Positions 22,993-41,831 of a stretch of 64,000 nucleotides of DNA are shown one piece after another. Source of the DNA: Aurantiacibacter spongiae (GTDB taxonomy: Bacteria; Pseudomonadota; Alphaproteobacteria; Sphingomonadales; Sphingomonadaceae); the NCBI RefSeq assembly GCF_003815535.1, contig NZ_RPFZ01000001.1:2294001-2358000 (forward strand), in the 5' to 3' direction. Numbering within the stretch: the stretch's first letter is position 1; each line of letters starts with the position of its first letter. Both the position numbers and the translations under genes were made by a program. Under the pieces are notes generated by a model. That model worked only from the letters and a program-made list of their open reading frames with translations. It was not told the origin of the DNA and ran no database searches.

Positions 22993-23083
22993 GGAGAGGT
23001 GCCGGAGTGGTCGAACGGGGCGGTCTCGAAAACCGTTGAGCCCTTCTGGGGTTCCGAGGGTTCGAATCCCTCCCTCTCCGCCA
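22993..23083 (+). tRNA. tRNA-Ser (anticodon CGA)
   Basis: A 91-base tRNA with encoded CCA. Acceptor GGAGAGG (22993-22999) pairs with CCTCTCC before the discriminator G. The anticodon loop CTCGAAA is flanked by CGGT/ACCG, giving anticodon CGA, which reads UCG serine codons. The long variable arm is that of a class II tRNA, and the T-loop GGTTCGAATCC is clear. Its 3' 17 bases are the integration site of the adjacent element, so the tRNA remains intact. Confidence 0.96.
23067..23083. repeat. att core, tRNA side
   Basis: TCCCTCCCTCTCCGCCA, the last 17 bases of tRNA-Ser, is identical to 40541-40557. It is the crossover region of tyrosine-recombinase insertion. The bases on either side differ between the two copies, so the identity is exactly 17 bp. 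Confidence 0.9.
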
Positions 23084-25553: not shown

Positions 25554-27053
25554 ATGGCGAAGCTGACGCAACAAGAACTTGAACGGCATCTATGGGGCGC
25601 GGCTGACATCCTGCGCGGCACGGTCGATGCCGGTGACTACAAGCAATATATCTTCGGCCTGCTGTTCTATAAGCGCCTGTGCGACGTGTGGGACGAGGAG
25701 TTCGAGGCGCTGCTTGCCGAGACGGGCGACAGGCAGGAAGCAGCCGACCCGGACGAACACCGTTTCCACGTCCCCGCAGAGCATCGCTGGGATGCGGTGC
25801 GCCAGCAATCGACACAGATCGGCCAGCGGCTCAACAACGCGCTGGCAGCCATCGAAGATGCCAATCTGCGACTACGCGGCGTTTTTGGATCGGTGGACTT
25901 CGCCAATCAGGATCGTTTCTCCGACGCTTTGCTGGAAAAGCTGCTCGCCCATTTCGAGGAATACCGGCTGCGCAACGCCGATGTGCCTGCCGACATGCTG
26001 GGCGATGCCTATCTCTATCTCATCAAGCAGTTTGCCGAAGGCGCGGGCAAGAAGGGCGGCGAGTTCTACACTCCGCGCTCCATTGTCCGGCTCATGGTCG
26101 AAATCGTCGAGCCGCGCCCCGGCATGTCGATCTACGATCCCACCTGCGGCTCGGCTGGCATGTTGCTCGAAGCGGTGCAGTATCTGAAGGACCGGGGCGA
26201 GGATGCGCGCAGCCTATCGCTCTACGGGCAGGAAAAGAACTTCGCCACCTGGGGCATCGCCGAGATCAACCTGTTCCTGCACGATGTGAACGACGCCTTC
26301 ATCGCCAAGGGCGATACGATCCTCTCGCCCAAGCGATACGATCCCAAGGCGGGCGAGTTCGTGGAAGGGGTGGGGGCCTATGACCGGGTGCTCGCCAATC
26401 CGCCGTTTTCGGAAAAGCAGTGGGGGCATGAGGTCTGGAAGAACGGCGACCCGTTCGGGCGCGATACCTATGGCTGCCCGCCCAAGGGCTATGGCGATCT
26501 CGCCTTCGTCCAGCACATGCTTGCCAGCCTGAAGGATGACGGGATGCTGGCGGTGGTGGTGCCGCACGGCGTCCTGTTCCGTGGCGGGGCCGAAGGGCGG
26601 ATCAGGGAGGCCATGCTGGCCGCAGACGTGATCGAGGCGGTCGTGGGCCTTGCGCCCAACCTTTTCTACGGAGCGGGCATACCTGCGGCTCTGCTGGTGT
26701 GCCGGGCCAAAAAGCATGCCGAGCGCAAGGGCAAGGTGCTGATCGTCAACGGCGATGCGACCTACCAGCCGGGCAAGGCACAGAACTTCCTGTCCGACGA
26801 GCATGTGCGCACGCTGGCCGAGGCCGTGCATGGCTTCGTCGATGTCGAGAAGCTGGCGCGGGTGGTTCCGGTGGAGGAGATTGCCGCCAACGGCCACAAC
26901 CTCAACATCAGCCGCTATGTGCAGACCCACGCGGATGCCGAGGAGGTCGATGTCGCGGCAGAAGTGGCTAAGCTGCAAGACCTGATCGCCAAGCGCGACG
27001 AGGCGGAAGCCGTGATGTTTATGCACCTGCGGAGGCTCGGCTATGTCGAGTAA
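25554..27053 (+). CDS. hsdM: Type I restriction-modification DNA methyltransferase, HsdM
   Basis: A 499-residue N6-adenine methylase. It has the HsdM N-terminal helical domain (LWGAADILRGTVDAGDYKQY), the SAM-binding site SIYDPTCGSAGMLLEAVQ near residue 195, the catalytic NPPF in RVLANPPFSEKQWG near residue 281, and the C-terminal domain contacting HsdS. It methylates adenines of the host recognition sequence. GGGGGATCA precedes the ATG. It overlaps hsdS by 11 bases. Confidence 0.96.
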   Translation: MAKLTQQELERHLWGAADILRGTVDAGDYKQYIFGLLFYKRLCDVWDEEFEALLAETGDRQEAADPDEHRFHVPAEHRWDAVRQQSTQIGQRLNNALAAIEDANLRLRGVFGSVDFANQDRFSDALLEKLLAHFEEYRLRNADVPADMLGDAYLYLIKQFAEGAGKKGGEFYTPRSIVRLMVEIVEPRPGMSIYDPTCGSAGMLLEAVQYLKDRGEDARSLSLYGQEKNFATWGIAEINLFLHDVNDAFIAKGDTILSPKRYDPKAGEFVEGVGAYDRVLANPPFSEKQWGHEVWKNGDPFGRDTYGCPPKGYGDLAFVQHMLASLKDDGMLAVVVPHGVLFRGGAEGRIREAMLAADVIEAVVGLAPNLFYGAGIPAALLVCRAKKHAERKGKVLIVNGDATYQPGKAQNFLSDEHVRTLAEAVHGFVDVEKLARVVPVEEIAANGHNLNISRYVQTHADAEEVDVAAEVAKLQDLIAKRDEAEAVMFMHLRRLGYVE

Positions 27054-28221
27054 CATGGCCGAACTGATCCGGGATACAGATGCGATGCCGGAAGGGTGGC
27101 GCACTGCGCCATTCAGTGCGTTGGCTGACTACGTGAATGGCCGGGCTTTCAAGCCAGAGGATTGGGGAACGGAGGGCTTGCCGATCATTCGGATCGCACA
27201 GATCACCAACCCCGACGCCGAGACCAACTTCTTTGATGGTGCGGTCGATCCGCGTAACCTGATCGACGACGATGACCTGATCTTCTCATGGTCAGCCACG
27301 CTGGCTGTAATGCGGTGGCGCAAGGGGCCAGCGGTCCTCAATCAGCACTTGTTCAAAGTAACGCCCGCTGAGGGTATCGACCGTGACTGGCTCCAGTTTC
27401 GACTTGATGCTTCGATACCCGATCTTGCCGATGAGGCACACGGCACCACAATGAAGCATATCCGAAAGGGGACGCTTTCGTCGCAAAGCACGATTGTCCC
27501 CCCCCTCGACGAGCAGCGGCGGATCGCCGAGGTGCTGCGGTCGGTGGATGAGGCGATTGCTGCGGCGGATGGCGTCATTTCCCAGTTGCAAGAGACACGG
27601 GGCCTTCGACTTGAAGCACTGATGGCTCTGCCGGGAACGTATCGCCGGATTGATGAGGTCTGCCGATTAAGCGGCGGCAACGGTTTCCCAATCAAGCATC
27701 AAGGCAAAGCAGCAGGCCAATACCCATTCGCTAAGGTCTCCGACATGAACCGGCCCGGCAATGAGGTGCAGATGCGCAACGCAGAGAACTATGTTGATGA
27801 AGCCGACCTCCGAACGCTGAAAGCAAAGACATTTCCGGTTGGCACAACCTTCTTCCCGAAGGTCGGAGCCACGCTGCTGACAAACAAGCGTCGGATTGCC
27901 GCTGTCGAGATGCTGGTGGACAACAATGTAATGGGCGCGGTCGCCACAGATATTGACCCTTGGTTTCTCTATTACGCCTTCTGCACCATCGACATGGCAG
28001 ATTACGTCCAGCCGGGTGCTGTCCCTTCCGTGAACCAGCGCACAATCGGCCAGATCATGATCCCAGTGCCGGATAGGGCGGCACAGGAGGAGTTTGTGGA
28101 AACCATGCGTGACTTGGACGCTGCTATCGAAATGCAGTCGGATGCACTGGCGCAACTGACGGCAACGAAACAATCCCTGATGGCCGACCTTCTCTCTGGT
28201 CGCGTGCGAGTTCCTGCATGA
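27043..28221 (+). CDS. hsdS: Type I restriction-modification specificity subunit, HsdS
   Basis: A 392-residue HsdS with two target-recognition domains: the first in residues 17-150 (GWRTAPFSALADYVNGRAFK), the second in residues 205-340. Each is followed by a conserved helical spacer (LDEQRRIAEVLRSVDEAIAA, and the degenerate EEFVETMRDLDAAIEMQ). It sets the bipartite DNA target. An upstream GGAGGCT favours the start at 27043; an in-frame ATG at 27055 is also possible. It overlaps hsdR by 4 bases. Confidence 0.94.
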   Translation: MSSNMAELIRDTDAMPEGWRTAPFSALADYVNGRAFKPEDWGTEGLPIIRIAQITNPDAETNFFDGAVDPRNLIDDDDLIFSWSATLAVMRWRKGPAVLNQHLFKVTPAEGIDRDWLQFRLDASIPDLADEAHGTTMKHIRKGTLSSQSTIVPPLDEQRRIAEVLRSVDEAIAAADGVISQLQETRGLRLEALMALPGTYRRIDEVCRLSGGNGFPIKHQGKAAGQYPFAKVSDMNRPGNEVQMRNAENYVDEADLRTLKAKTFPVGTTFFPKVGATLLTNKRRIAAVEMLVDNNVMGAVATDIDPWFLYYAFCTIDMADYVQPGAVPSVNQRTIGQIMIPVPDRAAQEEFVETMRDLDAAIEMQSDALAQLTATKQSLMADLLSGRVRVPA

Positions 28222-31200
28222 GCGAATACCGCCTCGCCGAGAAGCCCGCGCTCGATGCGCTGGCCACGATGGGTTGGCAGTTGCTGTCCCCGACGCAGGC
28301 GTTGGCGAAGCGCGAGGAGGAGAACCGCGTAATCCTCAAGCCGGTGCTGATGGAGGCGCTCCGCAGGCTTAATGGCATTGGCGTGGAGGATGCCGAGGCG
28401 ATCTACAACGATCTCGCCACCCTGTCCGACAATGAGGAATGGCAAAAGAAGCTGCGCGGCAGTTATTCGCGCCGCCTGTCCGGCGAGAACCGCGATAGCA
28501 CCGTGGTGCTGATCGACTTTAAGAACCCCAGCCGTAACAGCTTCCACGTCACCAACCAGTTCCGCGTCGCCGCGCAGCGGCCTCGCGTGCCGGACATCGT
28601 GCTGTTCGTGAACGGCATCCCGCTGGTAGTGATCGAGGCCAAGTCTCCGCTGAAGGGCACGGCCACCGGCGACGAGGCGCATGAGCAAATCCGCCAGTAT
28701 GAGCGGGACATCCCCCGGCTGTTTCACTCCAACGCTTACAACATCCTCACCGATGGGATGAAAACCGAATACGGGGCAACCGGCGCACCCGCGCAGTTCT
28801 ACGGCCCGTGGAACGACGCATGGCCGCGCGTCCGCGAGGACTTCGCCGATGCGCTGGCGAAAGACCTATGGTGCCTATGCGAGCCAAGCCGCCTGCTCGA
28901 TCTGCTCGCGCACTTCATCGTGTTCGAGACCGATCCGGAGACGGGCCGCAAGATCAAGAAGGTTTGCCGCTATCAGCAGTTCCGCGCGGTCAACAAGGCG
29001 GTGCAACGGGTTGCAGCGGGAGAGCACCGGAAGGGCCTCGTCTGGCACACGCAGGGCAGCGGCAAGAGCCTCACCATGGTGTTCCTTGCCCTGAAGCTGA
29101 AAACGCACCTAACGCTCGATGCGCCGACGCTGGCCAACCCCAACATTCTCGTGCTCACCGACCGGATCGACCTCGACGATCAGATTTCCAAGACCTTCGT
29201 CGCCTGCGGTCTACCCAACCCGTCACAATGCGGATCGGTGGCGGCGCTGCGCGAGGCAGTGAATAAGGGCGGCAACGGGCAAATCCTGCTCTCGACGATT
29301 TTCAAGTTCGCCGGATCGAAGGAACCCATCCCGAACTCGGCCAACTGGATCGTGCTGGTAGACGAGTGCCACCGCACGCAGGAGAAGGACTTGGGCGCGT
29401 TTCTGCAAGCGACGCTGCCGGATGCCCATTTCTACGGTTTCACCGGCACGCCGATCAAATCGGACGACAAGAACACCTTCCAGCGGTTCTCGGTCGCTGA
29501 CGAGCGATACCTCGACAAATATGGCATCGACGACGCCGTGCGCGACGGTGCCACGGTGCCAATCCTTTACGAAGGCCGGAAAACCGATTGGGCGATCAAC
29601 GAGGCGGAAATAGACATCCTATTCGACCGCTGGTTCGTCGATCTGCCCGATGACAAGCGCGAGGAACTGAAGGCCAAGGGCCTGACGCTCGCCACCATCG
29701 CCAAGCACCCGGAACGGGTCCGCCTGATCGCGATGGACATTTGGGAGCACTTCAAGGCGGTCTGCCAGCCTGATGGATACAAGGCGCAGATCGTGGCCGT
29801 GGATCGTGAGGCTGTGGTGCTCTACCGCGCCGCGCTCTCCACTGTCATCGCCGCCGATCTGGTGCGCGACAGGATGGAGGCCGGGGAAGCAGAGGAGCGG
29901 GCCAATGCCATGATCGCCTGCGTCTATTCCAAAAGCCAAGAGGATAACAAACCGAGCGAGAACGCGGACGTTGCCAAGCTGCGCGGCGCGCTAGAGGAGC
30001 ATTACCTCGACGACGAGGCCGAGAAGGAAGTGAAGAAACGCTTCAAGGTGCGCGGGGCCGATCCGCAGTTCCTGATCGTGTGCGACAAGCTGCTGACTGG
30101 CTTCGACGCCCCGGTCGAGCATGTCATGTATCTCGACAAGCCGCTGAAGGAGCACAACCTTCTCCAAGCCATTGCCCGGACCAATCGCACCCATGCGTTC
30201 ACGGGCGAGGATGGCGGAACCATCGAAAAGCCGAATGGCCGGATCGTCGATTACATCGGCGTGACCAACAATCTCGACGAGGCGCTGAAGTCCTACCGTT
30301 CGGAAGATGTCGAGAACGCGATGCGAGACATCGCCATACTGCGCAATGACCTGAAGGAAGCGCACGCCCGTTACCGCGCGCAGAAGCGGGCGATGAAGCT
30401 CGACGGGCTCGATGAGAAGGCCGCTGCCTACACCGCCGCAAAGCTCGCTGCCGAAGGCGATGAGGACGACTGGTTCGACCTTCAGCGCCTGACCCGCACC
30501 TTCATCAAAGCCTATGCGGACCTTTCGCCTGATCCGGCAATCCTGGACTTCACCGCCGAAGTGAAATGGGCAGCCGCCTTCCTGCGCTTGGCAACGCAGG
30601 CTATCTCGAAGGACGAGAGCCTCGATCACCGCAGCTATTCCGGCAAGATCAGGGAAATGCTTGAGCAGCACGTCCATGCGACGGGTCTCTCGACAACGAT
30701 CAAGCTGCGCAACATCACCGATCCCGAGTTCGCCGACGACTTCGATACCGCCGACATGAGCGACGACGATTTGCAGGAAGCCTTCGTGCGCAAATCCGCC
30801 GAACTTCGCCGTGTCACCCGCGAACTGCTAGACAAGAACCCGGCGCAATACGGTCGCTTCTCCGAGCGCGTGATCGAGATCATTCGCCGGTTCGAGGAAG
30901 GTCAGCTTGCCGCCGCTGATGGCCTGCGAGACTTCGAGAACCTGACCGGCGACATTCAGGCAGAGAAGGGCGCGCACTCTGATCTCGGCATGGATGAGCA
31001 CACCTTTTCAATTCTGCGCATCATCGAAGCCATTGTGCCGGACGCCGATGCGCGCGCAATGCAGGATGCCGCCATAGGGATCGGGGCAATTTACGCGGAT
31101 GCTGCGGCGACCCAGCCCGCCTTCACGCACATGGAGGATTACCTGCGCAGTCTGCGCCAACAAACCCGGCGTATCCTCACCGAGCGCGGCATCGGTGAGA

Positions 31201-31262
31201 CGAAGCTCATCCGCGAAAAGGTGGAGGTTTTCGCTGTTCACACCTTTGGAGGCGATGCCTGA
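28218..31262 (+). CDS. hsdR: Type I restriction endonuclease subunit R, HsdR
   Basis: A 1014-residue HsdR. The N-terminal PD-(D/E)XK nuclease includes PRVPDIVLFVNGIPLVVIEA (residues about 122-141, with the Asp and ExK). The SF2 motor shows Walker A HTQGSGKSLTM near residue 276, DECHRTQ (DEXH-type box) near residue 384 and FTGTPI. A C-terminal helical domain follows. It translocates and cuts unmodified DNA with HsdM2S. The full length and all motifs are intact. Confidence 0.96.
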   Translation: MSEYRLAEKPALDALATMGWQLLSPTQALAKREEENRVILKPVLMEALRRLNGIGVEDAEAIYNDLATLSDNEEWQKKLRGSYSRRLSGENRDSTVVLIDFKNPSRNSFHVTNQFRVAAQRPRVPDIVLFVNGIPLVVIEAKSPLKGTATGDEAHEQIRQYERDIPRLFHSNAYNILTDGMKTEYGATGAPAQFYGPWNDAWPRVREDFADALAKDLWCLCEPSRLLDLLAHFIVFETDPETGRKIKKVCRYQQFRAVNKAVQRVAAGEHRKGLVWHTQGSGKSLTMVFLALKLKTHLTLDAPTLANPNILVLTDRIDLDDQISKTFVACGLPNPSQCGSVAALREAVNKGGNGQILLSTIFKFAGSKEPIPNSANWIVLVDECHRTQEKDLGAFLQATLPDAHFYGFTGTPIKSDDKNTFQRFSVADERYLDKYGIDDAVRDGATVPILYEGRKTDWAINEAEIDILFDRWFVDLPDDKREELKAKGLTLATIAKHPERVRLIAMDIWEHFKAVCQPDGYKAQIVAVDREAVVLYRAALSTVIAADLVRDRMEAGEAEERANAMIACVYSKSQEDNKPSENADVAKLRGALEEHYLDDEAEKEVKKRFKVRGADPQFLIVCDKLLTGFDAPVEHVMYLDKPLKEHNLLQAIARTNRTHAFTGEDGGTIEKPNGRIVDYIGVTNNLDEALKSYRSEDVENAMRDIAILRNDLKEAHARYRAQKRAMKLDGLDEKAAAYTAAKLAAEGDEDDWFDLQRLTRTFIKAYADLSPDPAILDFTAEVKWAAAFLRLATQAISKDESLDHRSYSGKIREMLEQHVHATGLSTTIKLRNITDPEFADDFDTADMSDDDLQEAFVRKSAELRRVTRELLDKNPAQYGRFSERVIEIIRRFEEGQLAAADGLRDFENLTGDIQAEKGAHSDLGMDEHTFSILRIIEAIVPDADARAMQDAAIGIGAIYADAAATQPAFTHMEDYLRSLRQQTRRILTERGIGETKLIREKVEVFAVHTFGGDA

Positions 31263-32002: not shown

Positions 32003-32103
32003 TGGGCGTTCGCTATCCCACTAGCCAAGACGTGCCGGGCAGCCTCTGGCTTGGATGAGAACGAAGATTGATATTGATTGGTATTCGATTGCCAAATACT
32101 GAC

Positions 32104-33303
32104 ATGTCAAGGGGGAAGAATGTGTTAGCTGTCAGTTACATGGGAACCAAGCGCCACTTGGCTCCAGTTGTGGCCGATTTGGTCGACGACAGTCAATCAG
32201 GGCCACTTCTCGATCTCTTCTCCGGCATGTGTTCGGTCGGTCAGGCTGTCGCCCCGGCTCGGCAAGTATGGTCAAATGACCTTCAGCGGTTTGCCTATCT
32301 TGTGGCGACATGCCAGTTTTGCGGTCGATCTGATGCACCAGATCGAAAGTGGGCCGAAGATCAACTCGTGACCCATTATTCCTTGCACAAGCAAAGGTTA
32401 GCAACCGCGCTGTCCAGAGAGATCGATGTCGAGCTTGAGGCACTGAGTGAGCAGAGTATTGAACGCCTCAGTAAGTTGTTCGAGGATGGCATTTTTCAGG
32501 CAAATCGGATTAGCCATGGAGAAGGGAGTAGGCATCAACTTTTCATAGATCGGTATTCGGGCACTTATTTTGGCATTTCTCAATCCGTAGAGATCGATGC
32601 TATTAGGTATGCTATTGATCATCTGGATGGGGAATGTGCCGAAAAGGATTGGCTGCTTGTCGCATTATGCAGTGCAATGGCCCGGTGTGCCAACACTACA
32701 GGGCACTTTGCTCAGGCATTAAATCCAAAGCAAAGCAACATCGGCAAGGTGCTGGGGCAGCGCATGAGGTCAGTTTGGGATGAGTTCTTGTCCGCGTTTG
32801 ATAGGCTGGAAGCAATAGGAGAGCCTGATTGGAGAGCAGGAAACCGGGCCTTCCAAACCGAGGCGGCATCTCTACTGGCAGAGCTAATCCCACATGCCGA
32901 AGTTGGAGTGGTATATGCCGATCCGCCTTATACGGCAGATCAGTATTCTCGGTATTACCATCTTTATGAAACGGCAATTCTCTATGACTATCCCGCAGCT
33001 AGGGGGCGCGGCTTGTATAGAGACAATCGACCAGTTTCTCAGTTTTCTCATGCGTCGAAAGTGCGGGCGAGCATCGAGCAGCTAATTGCTCGCACATCGC
33101 GTCTCAAGGCAGACCTTATTCTCAGTTACCCTGCCGATGGTTTGCTGCCCAGTTCACGGTCTCAAATCGGGGAAATGATCAAGGAGCACTTTGGTCGTCC
33201 ACCAGAAGTGTTCCCTATCTTCCACAATCATTCGACCATGGGTGCATCGAAGGGCGATGCAAAGAGGCAGGTTACTGAATTACTCTATCGAGCGCGGAGC
33301 TAG
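32104..33303 (+). CDS. D12-class N6-adenine DNA methyltransferase
   Basis: About 399 residues from the ATG at 32104. The D12 signature SYMGTKRHLAPVV near residue 12 and LLDLFSGMCSVGQAV form the SAM site, and the catalytic DPPY occurs in VVYADPPYTADQYSRYYHLY near residue 280. It is larger than Dam (about 280 residues) because of a helical target-recognition insert at residues 65-230. An upstream in-frame ATG at 32068 could extend it by 12 residues. It is the first of three closely spaced low-GC genes (2-bp gap to the next), with no cognate restriction nuclease recognised beyond them. Confidence 0.88.
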   Translation: MSRGKNVLAVSYMGTKRHLAPVVADLVDDSQSGPLLDLFSGMCSVGQAVAPARQVWSNDLQRFAYLVATCQFCGRSDAPDRKWAEDQLVTHYSLHKQRLATALSREIDVELEALSEQSIERLSKLFEDGIFQANRISHGEGSRHQLFIDRYSGTYFGISQSVEIDAIRYAIDHLDGECAEKDWLLVALCSAMARCANTTGHFAQALNPKQSNIGKVLGQRMRSVWDEFLSAFDRLEAIGEPDWRAGNRAFQTEAASLLAELIPHAEVGVVYADPPYTADQYSRYYHLYETAILYDYPAARGRGLYRDNRPVSQFSHASKVRASIEQLIARTSRLKADLILSYPADGLLPSSRSQIGEMIKEHFGRPPEVFPIFHNHSTMGASKGDAKRQVTELLYRARS

Positions 33304-33305
33304 GC

Positions 33306-34268
33306 ATGGCCCAGAGTGACGGAAAGTCGCTAAAAATGATTGCGCCGGGTGACATTAGTCCAAACCCGGAAAATCCGAGGCTCATCTTCCGGCAGGAAGA
33401 AATGGAGAGCCTAATGCTCTCTATTGACCAGTATGGCATACAGGTGCCGATCACGGTTTATTTAGACGGCGGACGATACTATCTGCTAGACGGTGAGCGT
33501 CGCTGGCGATGCGCAGGAAAGCTGGGCCTGAGGGCCATTCCAGCCATCGTTCAGGCAAAGCCTACCGAGCTTCAGAACCTCGTGCTCATGTATAACATCC
33601 ATGCGCTTCGAGAGCAGTGGGACTATTACACAATAGCATCGAAGCTAGAGAGGGTGATCGATCTCTTTTTTGCCGAGAACGGTGAATATCCGAACGAAGT
33701 GACACTGTCTGAGATGACAGGATTGACCAGAGGCGCAATTCGTCGCTGCCAACTACTCATCAATCTGCCGGATCGATTTAAAGACTTGCTTTTGGGTGAG
33801 TTGGAAAAGCCAAAGCTCCAGCAGAAGCTATCTGAAGACTTCTTCATTGAAATGGAGAGGTCATTGAAAACTGTCGTGAAGCGCGTGCCAGAATATGAAA
33901 GCCGTCTTGACGAAATTCGAGATGGGCTCCTTGCGAAGTTCCAGAGAGGAACAATCAGTGCTGTTACTGATTTTCGGCAGTTGTCCAAGATTGCAACTGC
34001 CCTTGACAATTTGGATGTCAAGCGGGGCCAGACCCGAAAAATAATTGGTGAGATATTCGATCCAAACAACAATCTATCGATACGCGAGGCATACGAAAGA
34101 TCGGTTGCGTTTGAATATGAAGAGAGAAAGTATTTCCGATACGTCGAGGACATAGAGGGCTTCATTATCGAGGTTCTTGAGGAGGAAAGGGCCGACGATC
34201 TTGACGATGATTTGGTTGAAAGCCTGAAAAAGCTGCATGGAACCCTGAGCAGACTGCTGGCGGGGTGA
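33306..34268 (+). CDS. ParB N-domain-like protein
   Basis: A 320-residue protein. The ParB/Srx-type N-domain runs about residues 10-90 (IAPGDISPNPENPR, then YYLLDGERRWRCAGKLGLRA, the GERRWRA-type box). A helix-turn-helix segment follows (EVTLSEMTGLTRGAIRRCQL near 137-157), and the rest is helical and acidic at the C-terminus. In chromosomal ParB this fold binds CTP and parS, but no ParA or parS is seen here. Placement between an adenine methylase and a HEPN-like gene suggests a DNA-bound switch or nuclease in a defence module, by inference. Confidence 0.8.
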   Translation: MAQSDGKSLKMIAPGDISPNPENPRLIFRQEEMESLMLSIDQYGIQVPITVYLDGGRYYLLDGERRWRCAGKLGLRAIPAIVQAKPTELQNLVLMYNIHALREQWDYYTIASKLERVIDLFFAENGEYPNEVTLSEMTGLTRGAIRRCQLLINLPDRFKDLLLGELEKPKLQQKLSEDFFIEMERSLKTVVKRVPEYESRLDEIRDGLLAKFQRGTISAVTDFRQLSKIATALDNLDVKRGQTRKIIGEIFDPNNNLSIREAYERSVAFEYEERKYFRYVEDIEGFIIEVLEEERADDLDDDLVESLKKLHGTLSRLLAG

Positions 34269-34272
34269 AACC

Positions 34273-35106
34273 ATGAGCGACGGTATCACTACAGCAACGG
34301 ACTTTCTTACGGACGCAATCAAATCCTACTTGCAGACGAACTATGCCAATCCTCCAATCAAGGTCGGAACAGAGATTGACAAGAACCTACGTTGGGTTCC
34401 GACGCTCAATTGCGCCGTGAACAAGCATCTGATGCTCATCGAGGTGTCCGAGAAAGTCTACCCTGCAATTTTTCGGATGCGACATGCTGATATGGCAGAG
34501 GTTCAGAAGCCAATAGCCGTCTATTGCGTATGCCCTGAGGAGGCATACTTGAATGACCAAAAGGATGCCAACGATCTCATCCGGCACGGATTTGGACTGT
34601 TCACAGTCAACGCAGAGGGGGAGGTAGTCAAAAAATCTGCCGCAATTCCCATTGTTCAGCATATTACGGACAGTGATTACAATGCTGACGTGAAAGGACT
34701 GACGCCCAAAGTTCGGCGGGAAGTCCAATCCTCGTTTGAGGTTTATAAAGGAGACAGCCCTGCGGGTGTCGCAAGCATCACTGAATTGGTGGAAGGGATG
34801 GTGATGAAGGCAGCCAAGGAGGCTGTAAGAAAGGGGTGGATGACCAAAAAAGATGCTAATTCGACCCTCGCAAACGTAATAATCAAGATGCGTTCGCTTG
34901 CTCAGTTCGGGAAGGCGGAGATTAAGCTCAGTGGTGCCGGGGCCTTCGTTTCTCGGATAAGAAACGCCGCACATCATTATCCCAAATCCCAGAAGCAAGC
35001 ACATCAGAAGTATCGTGATTGCCGACACAGCTTCCTAGATGGCATTAGGGTTTTGAAGGATTTGCAGGAAGGCTTTAAGGCAGTTGGGCTAACTGGCTCG
35101 CTTTGA
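34273..35106 (+). CDS. Uncharacterised protein with C-terminal HEPN-type RNase motif
   Basis: A 277-residue protein of unknown family. The N-half (residues 1-130) looks alpha/beta with strands such as HLMLIEVSE and KPIAVYCVCPEEAYL. The C-half is helical and contains FVSRIRNAAHHYPKSQKQ, in which R230-x4-H235 with Asn after Arg fits the RNxxxH active site of HEPN ribonucleases. HEPN proteins are common toxins in abortive-infection systems. It starts 4 bases after the ParB-like gene and ends the trio. The HEPN reading rests on one motif and predicted helices. Confidence 0.6.
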   Translation: MSDGITTATDFLTDAIKSYLQTNYANPPIKVGTEIDKNLRWVPTLNCAVNKHLMLIEVSEKVYPAIFRMRHADMAEVQKPIAVYCVCPEEAYLNDQKDANDLIRHGFGLFTVNAEGEVVKKSAAIPIVQHITDSDYNADVKGLTPKVRREVQSSFEVYKGDSPAGVASITELVEGMVMKAAKEAVRKGWMTKKDANSTLANVIIKMRSLAQFGKAEIKLSGAGAFVSRIRNAAHHYPKSQKQAHQKYRDCRHSFLDGIRVLKDLQEGFKAVGLTGSL

Positions 35107-35331: not shown

Positions 35332-36318
35332 ATGAACAGCAAAGCAATGAGTTTCGTGGGCGCTGGCTTGCTGATTGTGGGATTGTTCCTGCCTATCGCA
35401 ACGCTGCCGTTCTTGGGCAACGTGACCCTCATGAGCAACGGCTTCAATATCGTCGCCATCGGGTTGCTGATCTTGGGGCTACTTAGCGGCTTTCTGGCTT
35501 GGGCAGAACGGCGCGATACGCTCATTTGGACAGGCGGTGCTGCCCTCCTCACCGTCATCTACATGTTCGGACGGATGCAATGGGCGATGACGCAAATGCG
35601 CACTGGCATGGCCGAAGAACTGGAAGGCAACCCTTTTGCGGGCCTCGCGCAAACAGCGATGGCGTCGGTGGGCTTGCAGTGGGGTTGGCTTATCCTTGCC
35701 GCAGGACCGGCTCTGCTGGTCTATGTAGCCGTTCAGGATCGGAAAGCGGACGGCTCCTCGATGTTTTCGGCTGGTGACAATGTCGAACGGATCGCCGCTG
35801 GCATTTCGGTGCTCGCCCTCCTTATAGCACCAGTGCAGGACGCATGGGGATATTTCACGGCACCAGACGCGGAGGAGACTGCGACTGCAAACTCCGTATT
35901 GTCGTCACCCGTCACCCAATCAGAAACGAGTTCGGGCCCCACTGCTGAAGAAGCGAACTACATCAGCGACAGCCTGCGCCTCTACGAGTTCGAGGCGAAA
36001 TACTACGATAGCATGTTGGATGGCCGGACGCCGGGCGTGGACTTCAAAATCAAGAACGAGGGTGATCGCACCATCAACAGCCTTACCGTCAAGGTCGTGT
36101 TCTACGACGCCGACGATCAGCCCATTGCCGAAGAACTCTATTACCCGGTCAACGTGGGCGGGTTCAGCATGGGTAATGAGGACAGGCCGCTTCGCCCGAA
36201 CTACATCTGGCAACAGGAAAGTGATCGTTTCTACACGGCTAAAAACGTGCCTAGCGAATGGAGTGAAGGCAACGCCCGCGCTACCATCACAGACATTGAG
36301 TTCGATCCGGCAGGTTGA
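35332..36318 (+). CDS. Membrane protein with extracytoplasmic FxLYD-like domain
   Basis: A 328-residue protein. There are four to five hydrophobic segments in residues 1-175 (FVGAGLLIVGLFLPIATLPF, then GLLILGLLSGFLAW, LLTVIYMFGRMQ, WGWLILAAGPALLVYVAV). A Ser/Thr/Glu-rich linker follows, then a beta-rich domain (GVDFKIKNEGDRTINSLTVK, then VVFYDADDQPIAEELYY) of the FxLYD/DUF type that recurs in secreted proteins. Function is unknown. The gene stands alone in the island and is complete. The following 192-bp gap holds ATTTTTTGTCAA at 36437-36448. Confidence 0.7.
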   Translation: MNSKAMSFVGAGLLIVGLFLPIATLPFLGNVTLMSNGFNIVAIGLLILGLLSGFLAWAERRDTLIWTGGAALLTVIYMFGRMQWAMTQMRTGMAEELEGNPFAGLAQTAMASVGLQWGWLILAAGPALLVYVAVQDRKADGSSMFSAGDNVERIAAGISVLALLIAPVQDAWGYFTAPDAEETATANSVLSSPVTQSETSSGPTAEEANYISDSLRLYEFEAKYYDSMLDGRTPGVDFKIKNEGDRTINSLTVKVVFYDADDQPIAEELYYPVNVGGFSMGNEDRPLRPNYIWQQESDRFYTAKNVPSEWSEGNARATITDIEFDPAG

Positions 36319-36510
36319 GCCCGACACCCTTAGCAGCAGCGGCGTGCATCATCGTCCGCGCATCACGCGGCGCATCTCTACCTTCCTTTGACACGCGGGA
36401 TGTTTCACGCCCTCGTTGGGCGAGACCAATGTCGAGATTTTTTGTCAATAAATCCGTGACTTAGACGCGATTTGATGCCAACATTTCTTAGGAAATGCGA
36501 GGCTTGTCAG

Positions 36511-37077
36511 ATGCTTATTGGTTACAAACGGTCATCGACGACCGAGCAGGTCGCGGGATACGAAGCGCAAGAGCAGCAGTTGCTTGCAACGGGTTGCACT
36601 CGCATTTTCGGGGAGATGACATCCTCGATTGCGCAGCGCGATGAGCTTGAGGCGGCATTGGAGTTCGTCCGCGAGGGCGATGCGCTCGTAGTCTGCAAAA
36701 TCGACAGGCTGGCGCGATCAACGACAGACTTGCTCGGCATCGTCGCCAAGTTGGAAACCAAAGGCGTTGCACTGCGCATCCTCGATTTCGGCGGTAGTGA
36801 GGTAGACACAAAATCTCCAACAGGCCGGATGCTTCTGACGATGTTCGCTGCCGTAGCGGAATGGGAGTTGGCGACGATGAGGTCTCGCCAGCGCATCGGG
36901 ATCGACAAGGCCAAGCAGGAAGGTCGCTACAAAGGCAGGGCACCCACTGCACGCCGGAAGGCATCGCAGGTGTCAGAACTTCGTCAGTCCGGGCTTGGTG
37001 CGACCGAGATCGCCACCCGGCTCGGAATAAGCAGGGCAAGCGTCTATCGTGTTCTGGCTGACGGGGCGGAAGCATGA
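36511..37077 (+). CDS. Serine recombinase (resolvase/invertase family)
   Basis: A 188-residue small serine recombinase. The catalytic Ser is in GYKRSSTTEQ (residues 4-13), the resolvase core includes GDALVVCKIDRLARSTTDL near residue 65 and EWELATMRSRQRIGIDKAKQ, and a C-terminal Hin-type helix-turn-helix (ATEIATRLGISRASVYRVL) is present. It catalyses site-specific inversion or resolution. The ATG at 36511 matches family N-termini. It is coupled by ATGA to the next small ORF. No paired recombination site was recognised. Confidence 0.92.
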   Translation: MLIGYKRSSTTEQVAGYEAQEQQLLATGCTRIFGEMTSSIAQRDELEAALEFVREGDALVVCKIDRLARSTTDLLGIVAKLETKGVALRILDFGGSEVDTKSPTGRMLLTMFAAVAEWELATMRSRQRIGIDKAKQEGRYKGRAPTARRKASQVSELRQSGLGATEIATRLGISRASVYRVLADGAEA

Positions 37078-37277
37078 AGTGGGACAATCCCCGGCAAGTG
37101 TTCGCCGATGTCACGGCGGCTCTTGAGGATGTTCACGATATTGCAGTGCAAGGCCAGTCATCTGATCTGACCATAGACATGGTTGCTCCGCTCGCCGGGC
37201 ACATCCGGCAGGGTCTTGCCCGTATCGAGACCCTGATGCGCCGATTGCCCGGCGCTGGCATCTCCGGCCAGCGTTGA
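37074..37277 (+). CDS. Small protein coupled to the serine recombinase
   Basis: A 67-residue soluble, helical ORF (MKWDNPRQVFADVTAALEDV, then LAGHIRQGLARIETLMRRLP). It starts inside the recombinase stop (ATGA) and ends next to the following gene start. Its family is unknown. Tight overlap on both sides supports translation. Confidence 0.6.
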   Translation: MKWDNPRQVFADVTAALEDVHDIAVQGQSSDLTIDMVAPLAGHIRQGLARIETLMRRLPGAGISGQR

Positions 37278-37282
37278 AGGGT

Positions 37283-37852
37283 ATGGCGAGCTTTGATCCC
37301 GAGCGGCTGTTGGCCGCACTCCCCTCGCTGCCATTGCGTCCGCCCGGCCCGAAAGCACCGAGGAGCTTCCTGAAGTGGCGCTGGCCACCGATATTGCCCT
37401 ATATGGGCTTCACGCCCGTAGAGCGAGTTCAGCACTGGCAGATTGCCCGATGGCTCATCGCCGCAGGTTGCATCACTGTGCCGACGCATTGCGCGATTTG
37501 CGCCAGCACTGATAAGGTTGGGTTCCATAGCGAGAACTACTATTCTGTCCTGTGCTCGCCCGCGCTGTGCGGCCTTTGCCATCAGCGACTGCATCGCCGG
37601 TTCTCACGTCCGGCTGCATGGAGAGACCTGATGCAGGCGCACGTCCGCACTGGCGACGAGTGGTTCGCCCTGATCCCGGCAATCGACTATGATCTAGCTG
37701 GTTACCTTCGCGCTACACGGGGGGAGCAACTGCGCGACATGCGCGCCGATCCGGCCTTGTTCGCCTGCTACGGGATTGCCGACAAGCTGCCCCGAAACCT
37801 GCATGGCATCGAGAGTGCGGAACGAGAGGATCGGCAAGGCCGATTGCTCTGA
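37283..37852 (+). CDS. HNH-like zinc-binding protein
   Basis: A 189-residue protein from the ATG at 37283 (GAAGG upstream); a TTG at 37274 overlapping the previous stop is an alternative. Cysteines form CAICAS and CGLCHQRLHRRF around a central HSENYYSVLC, which fits the CxxC...H...CxxCH layout of treble-clef HNH nucleases. The RPAAWRDLMQAHVRTGDEW segment after it is helical. It may be a nuclease of the recombinase or reverse-transcriptase module. The activity is inferred only from the metal-site pattern. Confidence 0.6.
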   Translation: MASFDPERLLAALPSLPLRPPGPKAPRSFLKWRWPPILPYMGFTPVERVQHWQIARWLIAAGCITVPTHCAICASTDKVGFHSENYYSVLCSPALCGLCHQRLHRRFSRPAAWRDLMQAHVRTGDEWFALIPAIDYDLAGYLRATRGEQLRDMRADPALFACYGIADKLPRNLHGIESAEREDRQGRLL

Positions 37853-37862
37853 TTATTCAGAG
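37847..37862 (+). terminator. Small hairpin at the end of the HNH-like gene
   Basis: CTCTGA and TCAGAG form a perfect 6-bp stem with a TTAT loop overlapping the stop codon. It may end the recombinase transcript. AT-rich sequence follows, with the 16-bp palindrome and then the structured region before the reverse transcriptase. Confidence 0.4.
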
Positions 37863-37911
37863 AGCATCTAATAGACAACTTTCGTTACTATGCCTCTATA
37901 TCCCACATTTT

Positions 37912-37927
37912 TTGTCAACATTGACAA
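37912..37927. promoter_or_regulatory. 16-bp palindrome TTGTCAA-CA-TTGACAA upstream of the reverse transcriptase
   Basis: It has two perfect 7-bp arms, preceded by a T-run, about 150 bp before the reverse-transcriptase ATG. The 12-mer ATTTTTTGTCAA that contains the left arm also occurs at 36437-36448, about 62 bp before the serine recombinase. This suggests a common repressor, possibly the XRE regulator at 39445-39678. Confidence 0.55.
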
Positions 37928-37984
37928 TGAAAGTAGATATTATGAAATGTTTGACTAATGGCGGCTTAATTACTAAATAGATCA

Positions 37985-38080
37985 CGCCAAGATTGATCCC
38001 TTGGCGGGCACGTGTGGTATTGGCTGGCGTCTAGGCGCGCTCGAAGCAGCCAATACCCACGTGCATTATTCGAGCGCGCC
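37985..38080 (+). ncRNA. Structured region (three inverted repeats) directly before the reverse transcriptase
   Basis: In 96 bases there are three stems. CGCCAAG/CTTGGCG spans 37985-38006. Arm A (38009-38026, CACGTG-T-GGTATTGGCTG) pairs with 38047-38063 (17 bp, one bulged T). Arm B (38034-38045, GGCGCGCTCGAA) pairs perfectly with 38069-38080. A and B interlock, so they can only form as alternatives or as a strained pseudoknot. The last arm abuts the ATG at 38081, and no Shine-Dalgarno is visible. It may be the template or structural RNA of the reverse transcriptase, or a control switch. It is not shown to be transcribed. Confidence 0.55.
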
Positions 38081-39475
38081 ATGACACCATACCGACCCCT
38101 TCGCACCTATGGCCTTGTGCCTCTCAATCATCCCCCGACGGATGAATGGGAGCCCGCGCGTGTCCCTATCCGCAGAGCCAAGAAGGCAACAGCAAAGCTA
38201 CTTCGCCGGATCGAGCGGGCGCGGGATGCTGGGGACAGAAGGCAAGTCAGATACCTGACGGATCGCTATCTGCGCTCCTACTCGGTCAAGCTGGCAGCGA
38301 CGGCGAAGGTCAACACAATCCTGAAAGGAGGTGAACGAGCAAAGTCTAAGGAACTGATTGCAACCGCAAGAACGATTGATCCGTTCCGGCCTGCCGGGGA
38401 GCAAGCCCACGTTGTGCCGATCAAGAAGGACAACGGTAGCACCCGGTTGCTGACACTGTTCGGACTGAAGCGGTCAACAGAACAGCGGATGGTGCAACAG
38501 TTGCTTTGCCGATTGCACAGGCCAGACCCGAGGCAACATGCCATGCAAGAAGGCGAGGACGGTCGCAACGAAGCAGCGAAAGCGGTCCTCAACGCAGTGG
38601 ACGGAGATGCCCGCTGGTTCATCGGCCTCGATATTACCGACTACTACCCTTCGATTGACACAAGGAGATTGCACAACCTCATACCACTACCTCGTCGCAT
38701 CATCGACAACGTCATCTGCCCTCCGGCAATGGATGACGTTCGTGTGCGTTATAATGGTCTTGTTGATGTTCTACGATTGGCGGAGGCTTCCCAATCCGGG
38801 GTAAGTCAAGGCTCGCGCACCTCACCCATAGTGGCTGACATCGTCATCAAGCATATCCTCGATGGGCTTCATTGCCCGGCGACGGTTATCAACTATGCTG
38901 ACGACTTCGGCGTTATGGCTCGCACAAAGCGAGAGGTGACGACGATTGCACAATCCTTGGTCCGTGCGCTTGCGCACAGTCCGGCAGGGTGCCTCCAACT
39001 TCGTAACAAGGTTCACGGGACCGCGCGACGCGTTGCTGATGGCTTCGAGTTCCTGGGCTACCATTTCAGGTCAAGGCGCGGCACCGTCATTTGCCAGCCC
39101 GCAGACAAGAACCTCATCAAGTTCAACACCAAGACCTGCGCCTACATCCTTGAAGCCGAGGCGGGACACGCGAAGGCACTCCTGCGCTTTCGACGATATA
39201 TGAAATCATGGTGGTCATCGTTTCCACTAGTCCGGGCTCATCTGGACGGGAACGACATGTTCTTCGCCCGCCATCATGTCCGAGAGCTTGTGCGTCGTAG
39301 GTATCGGCGCACCATGCCCTTAGCTGAAATAGCATTGGAGATGGATGGCGAGAACTTCGCGCCACTTCCGCCGCACACTGAAATCATGCGGATCGCGCAG
39401 ACCATTCGGGAGCGCCGAAACAGCCGGATAGGAAAACGCCCAACCTATCGGACAGATGTCCCTTGGTGGGAATAG
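38081..39475 (+). CDS. Reverse transcriptase (group unassigned)
   Basis: A 464-residue protein with a canonical RT palm: LDITDYYPSID at residues 183-193, QGSRTSPIVADI at 243-254, the catalytic YADD at 272-275, GFEFLGYHF at 321-329, and a helical thumb-like C-domain. A basic N-terminal extension (residues 30-95) precedes it. The start follows the structured region directly. There is no maturase or endonuclease domain, so it is not an intact group II intron protein. The isolated RT with adjacent RNA structure in an island fits a retron or defence-RT lineage, unconfirmed. Confidence 0.85.
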   Translation: MTPYRPLRTYGLVPLNHPPTDEWEPARVPIRRAKKATAKLLRRIERARDAGDRRQVRYLTDRYLRSYSVKLAATAKVNTILKGGERAKSKELIATARTIDPFRPAGEQAHVVPIKKDNGSTRLLTLFGLKRSTEQRMVQQLLCRLHRPDPRQHAMQEGEDGRNEAAKAVLNAVDGDARWFIGLDITDYYPSIDTRRLHNLIPLPRRIIDNVICPPAMDDVRVRYNGLVDVLRLAEASQSGVSQGSRTSPIVADIVIKHILDGLHCPATVINYADDFGVMARTKREVTTIAQSLVRALAHSPAGCLQLRNKVHGTARRVADGFEFLGYHFRSRRGTVICQPADKNLIKFNTKTCAYILEAEAGHAKALLRFRRYMKSWWSSFPLVRAHLDGNDMFFARHHVRELVRRRYRRTMPLAEIALEMDGENFAPLPPHTEIMRIAQTIRERRNSRIGKRPTYRTDVPWWE

Positions 39476-39678
39476 TCGAGAAGCTGGCCGGGCGTGACTT
39501 CGAGTGCGCGTGCTAAGCGGTCCACTACTCTAATCGTCGGGTTCCGTCCGCCAGATCGTTCGAGCGCCGAGAGATACGTCCGATGGATGTCGGCGCGGTG
39601 CGCCAGTTCTTCCTGCGACATGTCCTTCGCGCGGCGGATGCGGCGCACGTTCGCCCCGAAATGCTTGCAGATGTCCAT
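39445..39678 (-). CDS. XRE-family helix-turn-helix regulator
   Basis: A 77-residue protein that is almost entirely a Cro/C1-type domain (FGANVRRIRRAKDMSQEELA, then HRTYLSALERSGGRNPTIRV). It lies antisense to the end of the reverse-transcriptase gene, overlapping it by 31 bases. It may repress the reverse transcriptase or recombinase through the TTGTCAA palindrome, by inference. No obvious toxin partner is present. The next 207 bp (39679-39885) hold no other gene. Confidence 0.88.
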   Translation of the reverse strand: MDICKHFGANVRRIRRAKDMSQEELAHRADIHRTYLSALERSGGRNPTIRVVDRLARALEVTPGQLLDYSHQGTSVR

Positions 39679-39885
39679 AGGCCATCACAGGCCATCAAGC
39701 CCCGATTTCCGCCACATTCCATAGAGTGCAATGTGAATACTATCGGTAACACTTCGTCAGTTTCTGTGTGCTAGACGTTGTTCATGGGCTGCACGACTTA
39801 ACGTCGATCCATCTGCACGGAAATCAAATAGCCTTCTTCGGGAGGCTGTAACCGATAGCCCAGCGACGAAAGGATGAGTAGGCTG

Positions 39886-40260
39886 ATGAAATTGAAGGCG
39901 ATCTTCTATGTCGCTGTAACTGTCGGCGTGGCTGCCTATGTTTATCAAACCTATGTCGGCCCCGATCAGATTGCGGCAGCGCAATCCAGAGTGGCGGCGG
40001 AACTGAAAGACCCTTCGTCGGCCCAATTCAGGAACGTGGAGCAGGTAGGGGACAGGGTCTGTGGCGAGGTAAACGCACGCAACTCCTTCGGCGGGTATGC
40101 TGGATTTCAGCAATTCTATGTGAAGGGCGATGAGGTGTTGCTGGCAACTACCGGCAATGACCCGGATGCGATGCTCCAACGGGCAAGAGTTTCATCGAGG
40201 TGCATTGAACATCTAATGCCCGACGCTGATCCTGAAGCGACGGCAGCCTTGGCGAACTGA
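39886..40260 (+). CDS. Small exported or membrane-anchored protein
   Basis: A 124-residue protein with an N-terminal hydrophobic segment (MKLKAIFYVAVTVGVAAYVY) and an extracytoplasmic part containing LKDPSSAQFRNVEQVGDRVC and GEVNARNSFGGYAGFQQFYV. This last pattern recurs in small secreted proteins of proteobacteria, with no known function. AAAGGA lies 10 bases upstream. An ATG at 39874 would add 4 residues. Confidence 0.65.
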   Translation: MKLKAIFYVAVTVGVAAYVYQTYVGPDQIAAAQSRVAAELKDPSSAQFRNVEQVGDRVCGEVNARNSFGGYAGFQQFYVKGDEVLLATTGNDPDAMLQRARVSSRCIEHLMPDADPEATAALAN

Positions 40261-40452
40261 TTGCAGTCCATGCTCTCGCAACTTGATGCCCATAGCGTAG
40301 ATAAGGGAGTAACACGGTGCAACGCGCTTCGACCGAAGTTCGCTCCCGAGAGTTCGAGGCCATTATCTTCAATTTGAGATCGGGGGCGAAGCGTCTTTGG
40401 GGCGACCGGCGAGAGACGGCTCACCATAATCGCGATTGACGTTATCAAATAA

Positions 40453-40478
40453 TCTGCTGCTACATTTCCGGCTACACA
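40453..40478. repeat. Probable integrase arm-type site, right end
   Basis: It matches 23143-23168 at 25 of 26 bases (TGCTACATTTCC then GGCTACACA). It lies 63 bp inside the right att core, in the same orientation as the left copy. A 10-bp palindrome AATCGCGATT precedes it at 40428-40437, and AAAAACC/GGTTTTT inverted arms lie at 40509-40524. Confidence 0.6.
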
Positions 40479-40540
40479 TGCGCTATCAGGTATGGCAGCA
40501 ATGCCCTGAAAAACCGGGGTTTTTGATATGTGGCGCTTTC

Positions 40541-40557
40541 TCCCTCCCTCTCCGCCA
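40541..40557. repeat. att core, distal side of the element
   Basis: TCCCTCCCTCTCCGCCA is identical to the tRNA-Ser 3' end at 23067-23083. It marks where the host chromosome resumes. Between here and the Gfo/Idh start the 152 bp (40558-40709) hold a CCCGG/CCGGG hairpin that may be the original tRNA terminator, and the LacI-type operator. Confidence 0.9.
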
Positions 40558-40619
40558 CCCGGCCATATCCCTTTTCCGGGCTCCGGGCGGGCGAGACTTT
40601 TGTCCCCGACGCCGTTTGC

Positions 40620-40633
40620 TGATAGCGCTACCA
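40620..40633. promoter_or_regulatory. LacI-type operator before the glycosidase operon
   Basis: TGATAGCGCTACCA, with an AGCGCT core and near-perfect symmetry, lies 77 bp before the Gfo/Idh start. It matches the two sites at 61311-61324 and 61629-61644. It is probably bound by the LacI-family regulator at 61761. Confidence 0.75.
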
Positions 40634-40709
40634 TGGAAGTGCGAATCGGACACCGAACCTCCTTCGAGAAGGTCGGGCCAGACGCGATGGAAGCGGAGGG
40701 GGGAACGAG

Positions 40710-41831
40710 ATGGGCAGGACCGATCGGCGTGCGGTGTTGCAGGGCATGGGTTCGCTCGCCGCACTCGGACTTGGCGGGTCCGCCGGGTGGGCGCGGGACA
40801 GGGCGCGGCAGACCGGGCGAAAGCTAGGCTACGCGGTGGTCGGGCTCGGCTATTACGCAACGCAGCAAATCATGCCGCAATTCAGGAATTGCGAGTTCGC
40901 CAAGCTGACTGCCCTGGTAAGCGGAACGCCCGAGAAGCTTGCGCGCTACGGCGCGGAATATGACATTCCCCGCACCCACCGGTACGACTACCAGAGCTAC
41001 GACCGGATGAGCGCGAACCCCGACATCGACATCGTCTATGTCGTCCTGCCGAACGCGATGCATGCCGAATACACGGTGCGCGCGGCGCAGGCCGGCAAGC
41101 ATGTCCTGTGCGAAAAACCGATGGCGACCAGCTCGGCCGAATGTCGGATGATGATCGCGGCATGCCGCGAAGCCGGGAAGAAGCTCATGATCGGATATCG
41201 CAGCCGGTTCGAGCCGTACAACCGGCTGGCCATCGATCTCGCCCGTTCGGGTCATGTCGGGCCTTCGCGGGTGATCACTGCGCAACACGGTTTTCCGATA
41301 TCGCCCGACCAATGGCGGCTCGATCGCGACATGGCGGGCGGCGGATCGCTGATGGATATCGGTATCTACAGCCTCAATGCCGCACGCTACCTGACGGGGG
41401 AGGAGCCGACATATATCAGCGCGGTGGAATCGACGGATCGTTCCGACCCGCGATTCCGGGAGGTGGAAGACAGGATCGACTGGGAAATGCTCTTCCCCTC
41501 GGGCGTGCTCGCCAGCTGCGTATCATCCTACAGCAGTCCCCACAACGCCTACCGCGTGACGGGCACCCAGGGCTGGATCGACCTCGAACCGGCGACGCAG
41601 TATTCGGGACAGGCCATGCGCGTCAGCAAGGGCGGAACGATAGAGCCGCGCAGTCCGGTCGAGCCGGGGAAAAACCAGTTCGTCGGGCAGCTCGATCACC
41701 TAGCGGAGTGCGTCGTTACGGAGCGGGAGCCGATCGTCCCGGGGGAAGAGGGGCTGCGCGACCTGGTAGCGATCGAGGCGATCTACCGATCGGCGCGGGA
41801 GGGGCGCCGCGTGGCGGTAGCTGCCGTATGA
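40710..41831 (+). CDS. Tat-exported Gfo/Idh/MocA oxidoreductase (glucose-fructose oxidoreductase-like)
   Basis: A 373-residue protein. A Tat signal (RTDRRAVLQGMGSLAALGLG) precedes a Rossmann fold (KLGYAVVGLGYYATQQIMP near residue 38) with the conserved VLCEKPMA near residue 133 and a GFO/IDH C-domain. Periplasmic relatives (Zymomonas GFOR, Caulobacter aldose-aldose oxidoreductase) keep NADP bound and oxidise aldoses to lactones while reducing a second sugar. It heads the operon and overlaps the GH3 gene by 4 bases. A GGAGGGGGGAAC ribosome site precedes it. Substrate is not fixed by sequence. Confidence 0.88.
   Translation: MGRTDRRAVLQGMGSLAALGLGGSAGWARDRARQTGRKLGYAVVGLGYYATQQIMPQFRNCEFAKLTALVSGTPEKLARYGAEYDIPRTHRYDYQSYDRMSANPDIDIVYVVLPNAMHAEYTVRAAQAGKHVLCEKPMATSSAECRMMIAACREAGKKLMIGYRSRFEPYNRLAIDLARSGHVGPSRVITAQHGFPISPDQWRLDRDMAGGGSLMDIGIYSLNAARYLTGEEPTYISAVESTDRSDPRFREVEDRIDWEMLFPSGVLASCVSSYSSPHNAYRVTGTQGWIDLEPATQYSGQAMRVSKGGTIEPRSPVEPGKNQFVGQLDHLAECVVTEREPIVPGEEGLRDLVAIEAIYRSAREGRRVAVAAV

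Follow-up and report, generated by a model that had tools for sequence, protein, structure and literature searches.

In the 2.86 Mb genome of Aurantiacibacter spongiae, a mobile island carries a reverse transcriptase (RT) gene that is immediately preceded by two long inverted repeats which interlock, and this interlocked pair is unusual beyond the background of the genome. The RT, judged by its sequence relationships, fits no described class well. The explanation that we tentatively prefer, at somewhat less than an even chance, is that the repeats belong to a cis-acting, bistable leader which would gate translation of this orphan, island-borne RT, and that leader and RT travel together as one module. 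RTs of unknown class with an adjoining RNA have been the source of most of the recently discovered ways in which bacteria synthesise DNA. The present case joins a poorly classifiable RT to an interlocked leader of an unusual kind, and related islands retain an RT with the altered active site YADN that meets an HNH-like gene tail-to-tail and is accompanied by a serine recombinase. If the leader were a partner RNA, or if the three-gene cassette were a single system, a new RT function would be implied; if the leader were a translation switch, it would illustrate how such RTs stay silent.

The window, by which we mean the whole 64-kb stretch of DNA that was analysed (genome positions 2294001–2358000), contains the integrative island as a 17.5 kb segment running from the 3' end of a tRNA-Ser gene to a 17-bp copy of that end. 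The left end, attL (23067–23083, plus strand), comprises the last 17 bp of the tRNA gene, called at 22993–23083, and a direct-repeat search located the matching right end, attR, at 40541–40557 (plus strand); a second 17-bp repeat lies just within the island ends, at 23143 and 40453. The island has a G+C content of 57% as against 65–66% in its flanks. Its tyrosine integrase (23197–24816, plus strand) was recognised by reading of the sequence and, as a phmmer query, matches ORFs at the loci of relatives, a distant one of which carries the Pfam domain Phage_integrase. Next come type I restriction-modification genes on the plus strand (25554–31262; hsdM 25554–27053, hsdS 27043–28221 and hsdR 28218–31262), of which hsdS and hsdR correspond to the PADLOC models Specificity_I and REase_I and hsdM was identified by reading alone; their presence bears out an earlier note on this DNA, which had placed the RT in an element with other defence genes. 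The remaining cargo consists of a D12 methyltransferase, a ParB-like gene, two unknown genes, encoding a 277-aa protein and a 328-aa membrane protein, the serine recombinase (RES), the HNH-like gene, the RT and an XRE-type repressor. The D12 methyltransferase, the ParB-like protein and the 277-aa unknown follow one another in a row at 32068–35106 and may constitute a separate defence module.

The membrane protein gene (35332–36318, plus strand) adjoins the recombinase and its DNA is matched at a related locus, L015, at 77% identity over 981 bp. RES is a small serine recombinase (36511–37077, plus strand) with Pfam matches to Resolvase (1.4e-33) and HTH_7; its ORF is open from a TTG at 36472 and the start was set by comparison with relatives. 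The HNH-like protein (37274–37852, plus strand) gave zero matches in a Pfam scan and is characterised by the conserved columns of its family, C-x2-C ... H ... C-x2-C-H ... H. The RT gene (38081–39475, plus strand) encodes 464 aa with a YADD active site and yields the genome's single RVT_1 match (43.5 bits, cut-off 29.6). Its 3' end is overlapped by 31 bp by the gene for the XRE/Cro-type repressor on the minus strand (39445–39678; Pfam HTH_3, 5.6e-15). The interval between the HNH-like gene and the RT is at most 228 nt, and the structured portion occupies 96 nt.

This structured portion starts with a 7-bp hairpin (37985–38006, plus strand; arms 37985–37991 and 38000–38006) which on the minus strand is terminator-like. 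Inverted repeat A follows (38008–38064, plus strand), in which 38008–38014 and 38016–38026 pair with 38047–38057 and 38058–38064 to give 7 + 11 = 18 bp with a bulged T at 38015. Inverted repeat B (38034–38080, plus strand) is a perfect 12-bp repeat with arms at 38034–38045 and 38069–38080; it is interlocked with A in the arm order A-B-A'-B' and can be extended past the ATG to 21 nt at 86%. The final arm ends at 38080, one base before the ATG at 38081, and no Shine-Dalgarno motif is visible before this start codon. The hairpin, the interlocking order, the contact of the last arm with the ATG and the lack of a visible ribosome site had all been described in the earlier note and were found again at these positions; its measurement of the repeats held for the single bulge and for the perfect 12 bp of B, but repeat A counts 18 bp and not 17. 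The RT frame is open 5' of the ATG up to a TGA at 37994 and includes a GTG at 38012 within arm A. The G+C content is 31% in the first part of the leader and 61.5% in the repeat part.

A single repeat of this length is not rare, since five perfect inverted repeats of at least 11 bp with a span of at most 70 occur in the window, the A core and B being two of them, and 17 were counted over 400 kb of this genome. Interlocked pairs in which both members reach at least 9 bp are scarcer: the window contains one, the present pair of 11 + 12 bp, and 400 kb of the same genome contain four, none with both arms of at least 11 bp. That the repeats are a product of chance, or a decaying remnant without function, is an idea that can draw on the frequency of single long repeats here and on the finding of nothing similar near relatives, but both long repeats interlock, they abut the start codon exactly and no comparable pair occurs in the 400 kb, and we consider it improbable.

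The region 37980–38100 is predicted to be strongly folded on both strands, with z-scores of -3.9 for the plus strand and -4.8 for the minus strand, and none of 200 shuffles gave an equal value. When folded separately, A has a predicted energy of -35.7 kcal/mol and B of -25.7 kcal/mol. Constrained folds of transcripts of increasing length gave -47.5 for A versus -41.6 kcal/mol for B when the transcript ended at 38080, -47.5 versus -47.0 kcal/mol at 38090, -48.4 versus -51.3 kcal/mol at 38100, with B ahead by 2.9, and -83.2 versus -91.3 kcal/mol at 38200, with B ahead by 8.1. The energy model predicts, therefore, a bistable leader in which A comes first and B becomes the more stable once the transcript reaches 38091–38100, the gap between the states being small (0.5–8 kcal/mol). 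In the predicted B state, the AUG lies inside an extended stem. An H-type pseudoknot geometry would need a 4-nt loop to cross an 18-bp helix; a full pseudoknot of A and B is consequently implausible and alternative hairpins provide the better reading, as the earlier note had proposed, and A and B do compete in the constrained folding.

Folding of the minus strand could also be taken to suggest an antisense RNA which would cross the RT start, terminate at the 38006–37985 hairpin, with its T-rich tail, and repress the RT. However, four terminator-like sites were found against 2.0 expected, that hairpin among them, and no minus-strand promoter was detected within 37700–39900, so that we regard this as very unlikely, the least probable of the readings weighed here.

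For the preferred reading of a translation-gating leader, the following course of events is envisaged. An AT-rich promoter/operator stretch (37853–37984) would precede the bistable RNA, and hairpin A would form during early transcription; when the first codons have been transcribed the longer B hairpin would gain in stability and hide the AUG, and RT synthesis would, as a result, be low. RT would be made when the A state is kept or when B is opened, whether by the RT itself, by another factor or by upstream translation. We infer that the RT most probably serves in defence, or else in some other function of the island that draws on DNA synthesis. This reading is supported by the interlocking of the repeats beyond background, the computed energies of the two folds, the location of the AUG in the predicted B stem, the lack of a Shine-Dalgarno motif, the G+C values of the two leader parts relative to the island and the exchange relative to locus L013 considered below, as well as by the intact RT motifs, a 12-mer common to the regions upstream of RES and RT, palindromic before the RT, and the adjoining XRE repressor gene. 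It is weakened by the failure to find a homologous leader, by the lack of an outstanding promoter, by the exchange being seen in one comparison, by the small energy gap and by the likewise strong fold predicted for the minus strand.

The shared 12-mer, ATTTTTTGTCAA, occurs in identical copies at 36437–36448 (plus strand), before RES, and at 37907–37918, before the RT; these are the two matches in the window with at most one mismatch, where 0.06 would be expected, and 400 kb of the own genome contain none. The second copy is included in a palindrome at 37905–37934, built around TTGTCAA-CA-TTGACAA and detected by repeat and motif searches, which is a candidate operator or recombinase site. For the shared 12-mer itself, a common operator and a recombinase site are both possible. 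An 11-mer, ATTTTTTGTCAA minus its first A, lies 188 bp upstream of the RT at L015 and is present also at L034, L043 and L080, in varied places and orientations, and many RES loci are without it. A promoter scan gave two sites against 1.5 expected by chance, and none stands out. These motifs bear on the possibility that the inverted repeats act as DNA, as a place where a regulator binds or recombination occurs, with the serine recombinase or the XRE repressor as the protein involved. Both genes are close by, the palindrome with its RES-upstream 12-mer lies just before the repeats, and at some loci of related islands the 11-mer lies close to the ends of the RES-HNH pair; but the shared 12-mer falls outside A and B, there is no second A/B copy in the genome or in 196 other related genomes, and the RT was never found in both orientations at one locus, all of which makes this explanation unlikely, if less so than a chance origin.

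A comparison with locus L013 bears on how the leader and RT came to occupy their present position. The DNA of the window and of L013 match at 75% over 36632–37803, covering RES and HNH, and then at 68% over 39474–39675, in the XRE gene; the match breaks off close to where the HNH-like gene ends and restarts at the RT stop codon. Between the matching flanks lie, in the window, the plus-strand leader and RT and, in L013, an Excalibur-type gene, assigned from a Pfam match on the L078 copy, together with an oppositely oriented YADN RT. The simplest reading of this one locus pair, which involves a distant genome, would be that leader and RT entered as a unit into a slot formerly holding another RT, and sequence comparison shows this island slot to be occupied by other unusual RTs in related bacteria. 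Inversion of the RT by the recombinase was also considered as a cause of the orientation difference, the RT being codirectional with HNH here and convergent with it in seven relatives, and was rejected; no inverted repeats of at least 11 bp flank the RT, and in the tree the window RT falls on a different branch from the convergent ones.

Searches for the leader elsewhere were negative. Interlocked repeats were found within 700 bp upstream of none of 12 distant RT relatives (21–32% identity), the leader DNA was detected neither in 196 other related genomes nor elsewhere in the own genome, plasmids gave only one match, at E 0.2 and in the AT-rich part, and the core of arm A, used as a pattern, was absent from viral contigs. 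Rfam produced no match at gathering in the 64 kb apart from tRNA, and in 37840–38300, searched up to E 5, the best match was to an unrelated microRNA model (E 3.3). A conserved RT/RNA system, for which the earlier note had suggested comparing this region between homologues, thus finds no support in the 12 relatives or the 196 genomes. Sliding folds over 700 nt upstream of the window RT place the signal directly before the start, with the lowest z-score, -3.8, at -100; upstream of the 12 relatives some low values occur further up, for example -5.5 at -260 for L078 and -3.9 at -340 for L041. The strong fold predicted for L078, about 160–260 bases upstream of its RT, lies within the Excalibur-type gene.

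These results also bear on the possibility that the leader serves the RT as a partner RNA, acting as template, primer or scaffold as in DRT2, DRT9 and DRT10, with the A and B folds belonging to that RNA. We judge this to be the strongest competitor of the translation-gating leader, clearly behind it in probability and well ahead of the others. The position directly upstream of the RT, the strong structure and the movement of the module with the RT would all be consistent with it, and the published RNAs of DRT2, DRT9 and DRT10 likewise lie upstream, that of DRT2 being about 280 nt long and that of DRT9 188 nt (PMC12489045), and the 137-nt RNA of DRT10 being located upstream of its SLATT gene (PMC12632851). 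On the other hand, at most 228 nt are available here, 96 nt of them structured, the leader is absent from the relatives (0/12), the RT scores against the UG17 and UG4 models (46.5 and 49.5 bits) lie below those of four group II controls, and there is neither a SLATT gene among the Pfam-scanned neighbours nor an Rfam match near gathering.

Relatives of the RT were sought in 397 family, 396 order, 40 genus, 367 class and 169 other-genus genomes, draws that overlap, and were found, at 25–32% identity and excluding the own genome, in 4/396 order, 2/40 genus, 2/367 class and 5/169 other-genus genomes. They represent 11 distinct loci besides the own one, and a twelfth (L041) was reached via the HNH search. 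A close relative was absent from all searches; the RT protein found no relative in viral contigs or genome contigs, only group II-type RTs at 21–29% in plasmids and one weak match in phages. The HNH family was found in 15 of the 397 genomes of the family, one of them the own genome, where it is a second copy. That copy (L034, genome positions 923000–936000) forms part of a second RES-HNH pair, followed by a 456-aa protein without a Pfam match and a tyrosine integrase-like gene. Among 17 HNH loci examined, viral L016 included, RES was recognised by profile in 12 and an RT adjoins the HNH gene in one (L041); at L044 and L046 an RT lies some 5–6 kb from it. The latter two (L044:185–1315 and L046:164–1330) are YCDN RTs which form a separate 100/100 branch and occupy the same stretches as RES-HNH pairs.

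RES-HNH lies beside the RT in six of the 11 RT-found loci (L013, L014, L015, L078, L079 and L080), and L041 brings the number to seven. In all seven, HNH and RT converge, their stop codons being separated by -4 to +20 bp, YADN is invariant where the window RT has YADD, and L-G (SLG) replaces Q-G. The serine recombinase, HNH-like gene and convergent YADN RT can accordingly be described, from gene order and motifs, as a recurring three-gene cassette. The earlier description of the RT as isolated has to be abandoned, since a serine recombinase gene and an HNH-like gene, a pair that recurs with other RTs, come before it. A serine recombinase (profile, E up to 1e-5) is present within 3 kb in 10 of 13 RT loci, comprising the window and 12 relatives, one of which was found through its HNH gene, so that RTs near recombinases are the rule in these loci; the exceptions are L012, L073 and L074, and a tyrosine integrase ORF occurs near the RT in L012, as a fragment, and in L073. 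Two small elements (L010:7310–9489 and L011:8737–11036) show the order integrase, short helix-turn-helix gene, RT and serine recombinase, and at L010 the stop of the helix-turn-helix gene overlaps the RT start. The literature searched, mainly openly accessible papers, yielded no recognisable description of YADN RTs or of an RT accompanied by a serine recombinase and an HNH gene, which is a weak negative. A broader proposal would be that serine recombinase, HNH-like nuclease and RT make up a system which recurs in islands and whose RT slot passes between distant RT lineages, and that the window RT brings a structured, bistable partner RNA (37985–38080) which is read into a DNA product for defence or element movement; we rate this as unlikely, on a par with the DNA-site explanation.

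Among known systems, the group II intron RTs/maturases share with the window RT the palm motifs, which are intact and include YADD, and a weak RVT_N match (22.4 bits, below the Pfam cut-off of 28.1). The window RT differs in reaching only 67.2 bits with the NCBIfam group II model TIGR04416 (cut-off 300), in having no Pfam match to the maturase domain GIIM and in lacking any intron RNA around the ORF by Rfam, which recorded only tRNA matches in the 64 kb. A tree of 22 RTs unites the seven group II RTs in a group with 100/100 support that excludes the window RT, and the seven YADN RTs in another; the window RT has a long branch and a weak placement (77/84). The check by phylogeny suggested in the earlier note, namely whether the RT groups with intron proteins, therefore separated it from the seven intron proteins included, so that a degraded intron protein is not the preferred reading. 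AlphaFold, run on the single RT sequence, gave a mean pLDDT of 35.7, too low to be of use.

DRT10 (UG17) and other Class 2 defence RTs with an upstream ncRNA are similar in combining an RT with a structured upstream stretch, in their location in a mobile island and in a weak UG17 match. The best PADLOC models for the RT were generic RT (60.5 bits), CRISPR-type RT-Cas1 (49.9), UG4 (49.5) and UG17 (46.5). Four group II RT controls score higher, with 67.7–94.5 bits for UG17, 61.8–86.8 for UG4 and 160–193 for the generic model, and the UG4 and UG17 matches do not, for this reason, place the RT among the defence RTs; DRT10 membership, at first promising from the UG17 score, was rejected on the same grounds. 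The window differs further in that no SLATT gene was matched among eight island proteins scanned with Pfam, and in its leader of 96–228 nt, which is not conserved. Apart from the RT's own matches to RT models, no cas genes were found among nine proteins scanned with PADLOC, and a search of 36300–41000 for the template and variable repeats of a diversity-generating retroelement yielded only one 21-nt repeat pair at 76%.

Retrons resemble the window in having a structured region with inverted repeats before the RT. Retron RTs carry the motifs NAxxH and VTG, neither of which is present in the 464 aa of the window RT, and PADLOC retron models gave at most 15 bits on the proteins scanned, except for RT subtype models with up to 18.9. 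The earlier note was right that the usual msr-msd layout does not fit, as the repeats interlock instead of enclosing an RNA in the manner of flanking a1/a2 repeats, the two motifs are missing and Rfam gave no msr-type match, a test that a retron RNA absent from Rfam would escape.

The active site of the group II-like RT G2L4 is YIDD, where the window RT has YADD. G2L4 (PDB 9d4s) is comparable in being a stand-alone RT related to intron RTs, and the sequence match is very weak (E 0.0078). Finally, the RES-HNH-RT cassette of seven other genomes shares with the window a serine recombinase followed by an HNH-like gene, with an RT beside the latter, and at L013 this RT sits in the same slot; the cassette RTs are convergent and YADN, whereas the window RT is codirectional with HNH, has YADD and lies on a separate branch.
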